Below, piece after piece: positions 7,178-38,611 of a stretch of 64,000 bases of DNA. The position numbers were made by a program, and so were the translations under genes. Each line of letters opens with the position of its first letter. The stretch's first letter is position 1. The stretch is taken from assembly GCF_016863135.1 (NCBI RefSeq), contig NZ_BOOH01000036.1, forward strand, positions 1 to 64,000, read 5' to 3'. This DNA is from Planobispora longispora (lineage in GTDB: Bacteria > Actinomycetota > Actinomycetes > Streptosporangiales > Streptosporangiaceae). Under the pieces are notes generated by a model, which saw nothing but the letters and a program-made list of their open reading frames with translations, had not been told where the DNA came from and made no database searches.

Positions 7178-7291
7178 GATCCGAATGATAGGCAGCGATC
7201 AGTGATGGATCGCGGCTTCAGCCCAGCGGACCCCGGCCGGTGATCCACAGCGGCAACCCCGTCGCGCTGGAGCCAATCGCAACCACAACTT

Positions 7292-7334
7292 AGTCAACTA
7301 TAATTGAGTCAACTACAGTGCGGTCATCTATATT
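7292..7334 (+). promoter_or_regulatory. AT-rich promoter with direct repeats before DUF234 ATPase
   Basis: A conspicuous AT-rich patch just before the ATPase gene. AGTCAACTA occurs twice as a direct repeat (7292-7300 and 7307-7315, 15-bp period), and a perfect TATAAT lies at 7299-7304 between them. A second -10-like TATATT is at 7329-7334. This looks like a promoter flanked by a repressor site. Assignment is from sequence pattern only. Confidence 0.5.
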
Positions 7335-7341
7335 TAGACTC

Positions 7342-8763
7342 ATGAGCAAACCCGACCATGTCTTCGATCGCGAACAAGAATGGGCGAGCCTGGTCGGGTT
7401 CGCCTCGGATACGGGCGCAGGCGCCCGCCTCGGTGTGGTGAGCGGCCGTCGCCGCCAGGGGAAGAGCTACCTGCTGCAGGCCCTGGCCGGCAGCATGGGC
7501 GGCATCTACTTTCCCGCACTGGAGGTGACCGAGGCGGTGGCGCTGCGCCTGTTCGCAGATGAGCTGATCAGGTTCACCGGGGCGCCCGTCCCGGCCTTCC
7601 GCGACTGGATCGATGCCATCCCCTACCTTTTCGGCGTCGTCCGCGATCGTGCCATCCCCGTCGTGTTCGACGAGTTCCCCTATCTGGTCAAGGCGTCTCC
7701 CGAGTTGCCCTCGATCATCCAGCGAGAGCTGGGCCCCGGAGGTTCCGGAGCTTCCAGCAGCGCCCGCGTTCTCCTCTGCGGATCGGCGATGTCGGTGATG
7801 GGCGGTCTGCTGTCGGGCACGGCCCCGCTGCGCGGGCGCGCAGGACTGGAGATGGCCATCAGGCCCTTCGGCTACCGCCAGGCCGCTCGTTTCTGGGACA
7901 TCGACGACCCGCGGCTGGCGGCGCAGGTCCACGCGGTGGTGGGCGGGACTCCGGCCTACCGCAGGGAATTCGTCCGCGGCGACGCTCCGTCCGGGCCCGG
8001 CGACTTCGACGACTGGGTGGTCCGCACGGTCCTGAACGCCGGGGCGCCGCTGTTCAGAGAGGCACGCTACCTGCTTGCGGAGGAGACGGAGATCCGCGAT
8101 CCCTCGCTCTACCACTCCGTTCTGGCCGCTGTCGCCGACGGCAACACGACATCGGGCGGGATCGCCGGTTACGTGGGCCGCAAGTCCAATGAGATCGCCC
8201 ATCCGCTGCGCGTACTGGAGGACAGCCATCTCCTGGTCAAGGAGCGCGATCTCTTCCGGCCGAACCGCAGCTACTACCGGGTGGTCGAGCCGCTCATCAC
8301 CTTCTATCAGGCGATCATGGTCCGCGAGTGGGCCAGGCTGGAGCGCGGGGACGCGGCAACGGTCTGGCGGGGCAGCCGGGGGCGCTTCCTGTCACAGGTC
8401 GTCGGCCCCCACATGGAGGTGCTCTGCCGGGAGTACGCCCTGCACGCCGACCCCGCGGCGGGCGAGGTGGGAAGCGGAGTGGTTCCCGATCCGTCCAACC
8501 GGACGCAGATCCAGATCGACGTCGCCGTGCTCGCGCCCGCCGACCACGGGCGTCCACGCCGGATCCTCTCCCTGGGCGAGGTCGAGTGGGACCGGGTCAT
8601 GGGAGCCGAACACGTGGCGCGGCTGCGGCGCGCTCGCGACCTCCTGGCCGTCAAGGGGTTCGATACCCGAGACACTGTTCTGACCTGCTATTCAGGAGCC
8701 GGATTCAGCACCGGCATGGAGAGTGACGTCCGCCTGGTCACCGTCGACGATCTCTACGCCTGA
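7342..8763 (+). CDS. DUF234-type AAA ATPase with nuclease-like C-terminus
   Basis: 473 residues. Walker A GRRRQGKS at about 35-42, Walker B PVVFDEFP at about 107-114, sensor-like LLCGSAMSVM, a winged-helix segment (about 250-310), then a C-terminal PD-(D/E)xK-like fold with QIDVAVL near 390 and GEVEW near 411. This is the archaeal-ATPase/DUF234 architecture. The family is widespread in archaea and actinobacteria, often in accessory regions; its biochemical role is unresolved. I chose ATG 7342 over GTG 7318, which would overlap the AT-rich promoter. A second member lies at 36975-38351. Immediately downstream is the restriction island, so a defence-related role is possible but unproven. Confidence 0.85.
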   Translation: MSKPDHVFDREQEWASLVGFASDTGAGARLGVVSGRRRQGKSYLLQALAGSMGGIYFPALEVTEAVALRLFADELIRFTGAPVPAFRDWIDAIPYLFGVVRDRAIPVVFDEFPYLVKASPELPSIIQRELGPGGSGASSSARVLLCGSAMSVMGGLLSGTAPLRGRAGLEMAIRPFGYRQAARFWDIDDPRLAAQVHAVVGGTPAYRREFVRGDAPSGPGDFDDWVVRTVLNAGAPLFREARYLLAEETEIRDPSLYHSVLAAVADGNTTSGGIAGYVGRKSNEIAHPLRVLEDSHLLVKERDLFRPNRSYYRVVEPLITFYQAIMVREWARLERGDAATVWRGSRGRFLSQVVGPHMEVLCREYALHADPAAGEVGSGVVPDPSNRTQIQIDVAVLAPADHGRPRRILSLGEVEWDRVMGAEHVARLRRARDLLAVKGFDTRDTVLTCYSGAGFSTGMESDVRLVTVDDLYA

Positions 8764-36769: not shown

Positions 36770-36869
36770 TCCCCCGCCAACCCCGCACCGGCCCCCGCTA
36801 TTCCCGGCCGGATCCAACGGCCGACTCCCACGGGGTTGATCTCCGGGCTGTTTTGTCATTTACGTCTAA

Positions 36870-36886
36870 GTAAGATCCGGTCTTAC
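36870..36886. promoter_or_regulatory. Dyad upstream of DUF427 gene
   Basis: GTAAGA (36870-36875), TCCGG, TCTTAC (36881-36886): perfect 6-bp arms in an AT-richer promoter stretch about 100 bp before the DUF427 start. Possible regulator site. Confidence 0.4.
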
Positions 36887-36974
36887 GTAGATCCGATCGA
36901 CATTCCCCGCTTGGCATAAGAAGTGTCACAACGGCTTCCGGTCTTCACCCGGACTCCATACGCCCGATCGGCGG

Positions 36975-38351
36975 TCAGGATGGTCGCGGGGCGAAGATGT
37001 CCGCAGCGGTGACGCACATGACATCGGCGCCCGCGTTGGTGACGGACTCTCTGGCGCATACGGCGTAGCGGAGTTCCCCGGGACTCTTGGTCAAGTGCGC
37101 CGCCTTCGCCGCGAGGTCGGCAGCGATCCGTCCCGCGTTCACCCTCCTTCCCCATTTCGCCTCACCGACCAGAATCGGCGTCCTGGACCGGCCGCTGAGG
37201 GCCACCGCGTCGATCTGGTGCTGGCCGTCACCCCGCCACCACGGCCCGATCGCCACCACCTCGGGCCCGATCTCCGTGGCTCGGAGTCTCAGATGATCAC
37301 GGAATGCCTCTTCCCAGGCGTCCCCCATGTGATCGTCCAGGGAGGCCATCAGCACCGGCAGGACCGTCTCGCCGAGACCCCGATCGATCTCGGGCAGGAC
37401 ACGCGAGAGCGCGCCCAGATAGAAGGCGAGAAAGTTGTCGGTGATGCGGTAGACCTTGCGGCGGGTGCGCGCGGACTCCGTGACCGGCTGAAGCCTCTCC
37501 ACCAGACGGAGGGCCAGCAGATCGTTGAGCGTGCGCGTCGGATCGGCGCCGATCGCGTCGGCGATCTCGTTGTGCTTGGTGCAGCCCTCGGCGATGGCCT
37601 GAAGCGTGGCAGCGAGATGCGCTCCCTGCCCCGCCTCGGTGGCGAGCACGAGATCCCCCTCGCGGATCATCCTCGCGTCGGGACGACAGGCGAGCCGTTT
37701 GAGGTTGTCCTCGATCGAGAGTTCCTGTCTCCACCACGAGAGGTAGAGAGGCATGCCGCCGAGGATTCCGTACACCAGAGCACGGTCCGCCGGGGTCAAG
37801 CCGGGCAGCATCTCGGCCGCCTCATGCGGGCGGAACGGATGCAGCTGCATCGTCAGGTCGAACCGGCCGTAGAGAGGCGCGCGGTATTCCTGGATCGCCT
37901 GCATCGTACGGACGGCCGAGCCGCACAAGACAATGCGGAGTTTGGTCTGCCCGTGGGAGTGGTCGAGGAAGGCACGGAGCACGCCTTCCAGCTCCGGCGC
38001 CTGCCCAATCATCTCCGGGAACTCGTCGAGCACCAGCAGCAGCGGTTCCTCCCGCGCCTCCCGGCCGAGATGGTCAAGTGCCTCGTCCCAGTTCCCGAAG
38101 GGACGTGCGCGAAGGTCCCTCGTAGGAGAGCGGATGGCATCAGCGGCCCGGTAGGAGAACTCCTCTAATTCGCGGCGGGGTGTGCGATTTCCTCCGGTGT
38201 GGAAGACCACTCGCCTGTCTGACGCGAACTCTTGAAGAAGGGCCGTCTTACCCACGCGTCTCCGGCCCCAGACAAGGGCGGGCCGCGCGTCCGGCTCCCC
38301 CCACCATTCCTTCAGTGCTCCCAGTTGCTCTTGCCGTCCGACGAAAGTCAT
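36975..38351 (-). CDS. DUF234-type AAA ATPase with nuclease-like C-terminus, second copy
   Basis: 458 residues. Walker A GRRRVGKT at 29-36, Walker B LLLVLDEFPEMIG, IVLCGSAVRTM, a winged-helix region (EGCTKHNEIADAIGADPTRTLNDLLAL) and a C-terminal PD-(D/E)xK-like fold (HQIDAVAL ... LVGEAKWG). Same architecture as 7342-8763, with ECK-like EAKW in place of EVEW. ATG 38349-38351 is the family-typical start (MTFVGRQEQL). A frame opens further upstream at 38442 and would add a repetitive DV/DI-rich leader translated from the inverted repeat at 38364-38411; that seems unlikely. No strong ribosome site. Confidence 0.82.
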   Translation of the reverse strand: MTFVGRQEQLGALKEWWGEPDARPALVWGRRRVGKTALLQEFASDRRVVFHTGGNRTPRRELEEFSYRAADAIRSPTRDLRARPFGNWDEALDHLGREAREEPLLLVLDEFPEMIGQAPELEGVLRAFLDHSHGQTKLRIVLCGSAVRTMQAIQEYRAPLYGRFDLTMQLHPFRPHEAAEMLPGLTPADRALVYGILGGMPLYLSWWRQELSIEDNLKRLACRPDARMIREGDLVLATEAGQGAHLAATLQAIAEGCTKHNEIADAIGADPTRTLNDLLALRLVERLQPVTESARTRRKVYRITDNFLAFYLGALSRVLPEIDRGLGETVLPVLMASLDDHMGDAWEEAFRDHLRLRATEIGPEVVAIGPWWRGDGQHQIDAVALSGRSRTPILVGEAKWGRRVNAGRIAADLAAKAAHLTKSPGELRYAVCARESVTNAGADVMCVTAADIFAPRPS

Positions 38352-38363
38352 AGGAACAACGTA

Positions 38364-38411
38364 ACCGACCTGGATGTCGGCGACATCGATATCGCCGACA
38401 TCCAGGTCGGT
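38364..38411. repeat. Perfect 20-bp inverted repeat upstream of DUF234 ATPase
   Basis: A 20-base arm (38364-38383, beginning ACCGACCTGG) and its exact complement (38392-38411) flank an 8-base centre, ending 13 bases from the ATPase start codon. As RNA it would form a very stable hairpin covering the leader. The unit GACATC/GATGTC recurs further out to 38432. Candidate operator or translational switch. Confidence 0.8.
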
Positions 38412-38611
38412 GACGTCGGTGTCGGTGATGTTGCCATGCATAGCTGGATCTTCGGAGCATCGGAGCTCTTGAGCACCCCGAACGGGCTTTTCGGGAGCGG
38501 CGAGCGCTCGATAACCCCTTGCCAAAGCGGCGGAAACCAGGGAGGTTTGCCCCGGCCGATCGGCGTGCCGACGCGCGCCCCGGCCCGATGTCACCTGCCG
38601 AAAGGACCTCC

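Follow-up and report, generated by a model that had tools for sequence, protein, structure and literature searches.

The ATPase gene and its upstream palindrome

The DNA analyzed here (the window) is a 64,000 nt stretch of the actinobacterium Planobispora longispora, positions 1 to 64,000 of contig NZ_BOOH01000036.1 (assembly GCF_016863135.1), and the subject of this report is a palindromic repeat immediately before one of its genes. The gene (36975–38351, minus strand, ATG at 38351) specifies a DUF234-type AAA+ ATPase of 458 aa plus stop codon, and was annotated with Pfam and PADLOC. The Pfam matches are to ATPase_2 (PF01637; E = 2.2e-19, 70.6 bits against a curated cut-off of 33.2) and DUF234 (PF03008; E = 2e-10, 41.4 bits against a cut-off of 22.5). 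PADLOC model PDC-S27 matches residues 2–312 (E = 1.9e-34), making the protein a phage-defence candidate (PDC) with a presumed link to defence. Among 38 relatives, the PD-(D/E)XK-like residue D381 is invariant and K399 is at least 90% conserved, a pattern compatible with nuclease activity. A profile built from these relatives aligns to the Walker-type ATPase 2qen at positions 2–310, covering the AAA+ and helix-turn-helix (HTH) region (E = 4.4e-22), and to SSO1545 (2fna; E = 7e-17), both of them solved relatives; we know of no DNA target for either. The predicted HTH lies at about residues 259–279 (37515–37577, minus strand), as placed by the alignment to 2qen and by the covariation of T272 (codon 37536–37538, minus strand) described below.

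Twelve bases from the ATG is the edge of a 48 bp palindrome (38364–38411, no strand), with uninterrupted 20 bp arms (38364–38383 and 38392–38411) separated by 8 bp; the perfect arms that the initial annotation had reported within 38364–38432 are as described there. Repeat finding called the element as two gapless 29 nt arms (38359–38387 and 38388–38416, 93% complementary), the first listed of 18 inverted repeats with spacing of up to 60 in the 64 kb window, and 20 perfectly paired bases is far above chance for a sequence of this size.

Overlooked at that stage was that the palindrome is built from 9 bp sites on an exact 15 bp period. Five near-palindromes of the GTCGGCGAC type, read on the minus strand, lie at -78, -63, -48, -33 and -18 relative to the ATG: ATCACCGAC (38421–38429), which is the weakest and outermost, GTCACCGAC (38406–38414), GTCGGCGAT (38391–38399), GTCGCCGAC (38376–38384) and GTCGGTTAC (38361–38369). 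Sites -18 to -63 make up the palindrome, which is so long because the 9 bp sites are stacked with spacers that are themselves near-palindromic, and it is a by-product of the phased array. The 3' end of the -18 site overlaps a -10-like hexamer, TACGTT (38358–38363, minus strand; -12 to -7), which suggests a leaderless promoter. A TANNNT hexamer begins at -12 in 20 of the 36 genes of the window clade (the 36 nearest proteins), compared to fewer than four of 235 control genes at any offset. With a -10-like element at this position the array would cover the region contacted by polymerase, and transcripts would begin at the ATG or right beside it.

The reading frames rich in D, V and I that the initial annotation saw on both strands of the repeat are real, but they are a mere by-product of its sequence. 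A coding leader was considered and ruled out, and the repeat is taken as noncoding because the copy in Planomonospora parontospora (L008) has a stop codon in the frame of the gene, between the array and the ATG.

A triple-site pattern taken from the array had no second match in the 8.84 Mb genome at up to 3 mismatches, the window locus being its sole occurrence, which favours a private operator over a regulon. A looser two-site pattern, tried as a probe for a regulon, had 595 forward matches genome-wide, against 93 for the control, and these were read as mostly coding bias and uninformative.

Conservation of the array with the gene

The initial annotation had proposed looking for the palindrome upstream of orthologues, and had named unrelated leaders as the outcome that would count against it. 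The outcome was the opposite: the array is kept in Planobispora takensis, Planomonospora parontospora and P. venezuelensis, where the ATPases are 92, 85 and 89% identical (best segment) to that of the window. The sites at -63, -48, -33 and -18 occur at the same offsets in two Planobispora/Planomonospora loci (L007 and L009) and in a genome of the same class (L161), while two remoter actinobacterial proteins (65–67% identity) have GTCGGCGAC sites with 15 bp spacing before their genes.

The DNA homology between the window and loci L007, L008 and L009 runs from within, or just outside, the array to shortly past the stop codon. At L009, the array and gene are found on the opposite side of the neighbouring methyltransferase gene, and at L008 the immediate flanks are unmatched and the window's upstream neighbour is found about 1 kb downstream. 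Judged by these alignments, array and gene behave as a transferable unit.

A separate observation concerns L078, from a genome of the same genus, where a truncated DUF234 ATPase of another class lies between the same flanks at the same chromosomal spot. With a different class of ATPase in this position, the site looks like a hot spot at which such genes replace each other.

Phased arrays across the DUF234 family

Of 61 genomes of the taxonomic family, 22 have DUF234 proteins; at the level of the phylum the figure is 37 of 296, and at that of the class 60 of 394. Loci were collected from these genomes, from searches for orthologues and from a set of 12 plasmid records (Rhodothermus, Methanocaldococcus, haloarchaea, Bacteroides, Vibrio, Fusobacteria, Arcobacter, rhizobia and Desulfosarcina). 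The 164 candidates were reduced to 134 by removing 30 without a usable start or P-loop, and then, after 13 duplicates or leaders that were too short or contained N, to 121 unique 90 bp leaders. Each was scored for 9 bp near-palindromes recurring every 15 or 16 bp and compared with 200 dinucleotide-preserving shuffles of itself. As controls, 235 genes were drawn from twenty 20 kb stretches of the sampled genomes, with the start taken as the most upstream ATG or GTG of open reading frames of at least 200 codons.

Arrays with a 15/16 bp period were detected at p<=0.05 in 100 of the 121 DUF234 leaders, which are mostly best-scoring matches and not a random draw, against 13 of 235 controls, and at p<=0.01 in 81/121 against 4/235 (99 and 82 leaders, respectively, in an initial run). 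Other periods were found in far fewer of the 121 leaders (12/13 bp, 17; 18/19 bp, 12; 20/21 bp, 17). In a plain count of 9-mers (at least 8 matches), 37 of the 82 leaders that do not belong to the window clade have direct repeats on a 15 bp period, compared to 1.0 in shuffles; within the clade, repeats occurred at 16 bp in 14 and at 15 bp in 5 of 33 leaders (at most 0.1 in shuffles). A single inverted-repeat score, the first measure used and since superseded by the array test, reached 12 or more in 27/73 leaders and 12/235 controls. The arrays span Actinomycetota and the plasmids of other bacteria and archaea, and their motif varies by subfamily. Within this sampling, the putative operator array is a feature of the whole DUF234 ATPase family.

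The sister architecture, PDC-S01-type ATPases (AAA_14 and DUF4143), differs in this respect. None of 22 usable loci (from 30) had a 15/16 bp array, and five of the 22 (L194, L204, L205, L207 and L213) carry a single, long inverted repeat close to their start, so that this family may have an operator design of its own.

Carriage of the arrays by viruses was also considered. Three pattern scans of viral contigs returned 16, 0 and 3 stretches; in the sequence available around them no ATPase relative was present, and they were read as chance matches or simple repeats. No close relatives of the window ATPase were found in viral contigs.

Covariation of the sites with the predicted recognition helix

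In the window clade, 34 of the 36 proteins were analyzed (L013 and L014, with weak arrays, were dropped), and every variable alignment column was compared, by phylogenetic analysis of variance, with traits simulated along the tree. Half-sites in this clade are mostly GT-C/A-G/A, and the base at position 4 follows residue 272, the predicted start of the HTH recognition helix. Where this residue is Thr, base 4 is mostly G (17 of 18 genes), where it is Ser or Ala, base 4 is mostly A (13/15), and a single gene with Leu has G. Among 345 columns, T272 ranked first for A at base 4 (p=5e-5) and again first for G (p=6.5e-4), with D270 within the top four. For base 3, residues of the preceding helix ranked high: A264 and H260 were second and third for A, and H260 was second for C.

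A second clade was represented by 26 of 49 genes, those with GNNA half-sites (mostly GATA, GAGA, GTTA and GGTA). Here, S284 ranked first of 337 columns for T at base 2 and A283 first for G at base 3 (0/20,000 simulations in each case). Both residues lie at the N-terminus of the same predicted recognition helix, and P278 and R282 were among the top six for G at base 3. The rankings in these two independent clades point towards the ATPase's own recognition helix in the choice of site.

Paralogues and other arrays

A search of the P. longispora genome with the ATPase retrieved six places, including the query. Each of the five paralogues has a repeat of its own immediately ahead of the start codon; these include a GAGTCTC type, a GTAACTTAC type and two inverted repeats with 16 bp arms. 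The first ATPase gene of the window (plus strand, start at 7342) is preceded by 15 bp direct repeats of the TAGTCAACTA type that lie immediately before its ATG (7290–7342), and its product has no Pfam match at 0.001 over 7420–8760.

Just 3' of the DUF234 ATPase gene there is an orphan-looking array of another DUF234 class (GATCTACGTAAGACCGGATCTTACTTAGACG; 36860–36893, minus strand), judged by eye, that resembles the leaders of L070 and L134 and stops short of an ATG at 36859. A lost ATPase may have left it behind as a relic.

Proposed function of the array and alternative explanations

The initial annotation had offered three readings of the palindrome: as a site of autoregulation, as an RNA switch, or as a structure on which the ATPase acts. 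The first gains support from the conservation of the array with the gene, its overlap with a promoter-like -10 element, and the covariation of its sites with the recognition helix. These comparisons suggest that each such ATPase recognizes the sites before its own gene and controls its own production, and the explanation we regard as probable is that of a dedicated operator array, in which the DUF234 ATPase binds the five sites via its own winged helix-turn-helix and represses its own leaderless promoter. The winged-helix domain would bind the 9 bp near-palindromes, and the bound array would span the predicted leaderless promoter from -78 to -10, so that occupancy by the ATPase should block it and reduce the gene's own transcription (repression seems likelier here than activation). 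Each ATPase of the family would travel with its own array, with motif and recognition helix changing together between subfamilies, and a candidate defence nuclease would be kept scarce until repression is relieved. The sites have the properties expected of an operator, in that they overlap the gene's own promoter, as predicted from the -10-like hexamer, and travel with the gene, and their specificity tracks the predicted recognition helix of the ATPase itself (T272 in one clade, and S284 and A283, for two of four traits, in the other).

Several results weigh against this explanation. The array test was failed by 21 of the 121 DUF234 genes, and the residue code has exceptions, with L120 (Thr272) having T/C at base 4, L150 having Ser but G, and L161 having Ser and a tie. 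The top column for base 3 in the first clade was G54 (codon 38190–38192), which is in the ATPase domain, outside the HTH, and is unexplained; in the second clade, the scans for A at base 2 and T at base 3 (two of the four traits) also had top columns outside the helix. In a mutual-information scan of the whole family the signal of relatedness was overwhelming, and the helix did not stand out. Pfam HTH matches between the ATPase_2 and DUF234 domains fall below their cut-offs, and the predicted structure, with a mean predicted local distance difference test score (pLDDT) of 56.6 and about 45 in the HTH, is too poor in that region to add evidence.

Promoters are often controlled from elsewhere, and the array could be read by another, host-encoded regulator, such as a stress- or phage-response repressor, with the ATPase being only its target. 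We consider this improbable, since the paralogues in the same genome bear unrelated repeats, which one regulator would not serve. In addition, the triple-site array is single in the genome, no neighbouring gene is common to the 12 plasmid loci, and it is the recognition helix of the ATPase itself that co-varies with the sites. The array might also serve the ATPase-nuclease as a DNA substrate or as a platform for its loading, in assembly, licensing or cleavage, with any effect on the promoter being secondary. The conserved D381 and K399, the 15/16 bp site spacing, which would suit oligomer stacking, and a weak AAA+ similarity to TnsC are compatible with such a role, but the array overlies a -10-like element and keeps a constant distance to the start codon, the natural place for an operator, nothing found indicates cleavage or favours a structure cut by the ATPase, and we judge this explanation unlikely.

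A mobile-element end or iteron-type origin would account for the homology breaks in the outer array and just past the stop codon, and for the displaced unit beyond the methyltransferase gene at L009. It is nevertheless very unlikely, as no matching terminal repeat was found, with no second copy of the triple-site pattern in the genome within 3 mismatches and none visible in the 3' flanks viewed, and the genes are both chromosomal and plasmid-borne. An RNA hairpin or riboswitch in a 5' leader can be given as little credence: the window copy would fold perfectly if it were transcribed, but many relatives have only direct repeats without hairpin potential at the same position (for example, L018 and L055), and with the -10-like hexamer at -12, six bases short of the ATG, the repeat would lie outside the transcript and there would be little or no leader.

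A further, doubtful extension of the dedicated-operator explanation is a self-addressed defence switch, in which each protein would fit its phased array as a key fits a lock, the two evolving together by a simple residue-to-base code at the recognition helix. The ATPase would assemble along the 15/16 bp array as a silent repressor, and its ATP state, or invading DNA, would release promoter and nuclease at once. If so, divergence of the arrays would insulate the many paralogues of one cell from each other.

Relation to known systems and significance

A 2026 survey of archaea presents PDC-S27 as the fusion of an ATPase with a PD-(D/E)XK domain, counts 3503 examples in Archaea and 4562 in Bacteria, and terms most PDCs unvalidated (PMC12988326). 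The window ATPase matches this model, and the available text of that survey makes no mention of an upstream array or of autoregulation. IniR, a mycobacterial AAA+ regulator likened to SSO1545, binds and activates a promoter (PMC5760070), and indicates that an ATPase of related fold can act in this way. IniR controls the iniBAC operon and carries a MalT-like domain together with an HTH at its C-terminus, whereas the window ATPase has a DUF234 domain and an internal HTH and would recognize only its own site. No MalT-like sensor or C-terminal LuxR-type HTH was detected in it by Pfam at E<=0.001, where the only models matched were ATPase_2, DUF234 and AAA.

LexA and lambda CI are autorepressors that act on repeated palindromic sites over their own promoters. 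They differ from the present case in that the proposed binder is an AAA+ ATPase-nuclease, and that the 15/16 bp phased array diversifies within one family. That proteins regulate themselves through repeated operators has long been known, and what would be new is a family of AAA+ ATPase-nucleases that does so with private, phased and co-diversifying arrays. No published description of phased arrays before DUF234 ATPases was found, in a search that was thin on subscription journals, and within the same literature no mechanism was found described for the PDC-S27/DUF234 ATPases, of which there are thousands. With a self-matched array, each of them would come with a DNA ligand at hand, a reporter and a testable specificity code, and this orphan family would become experimentally tractable. 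The family would also provide a set of natural variants whose DNA-binding specificity has changed several times, and in which both partners can be read from sequence.
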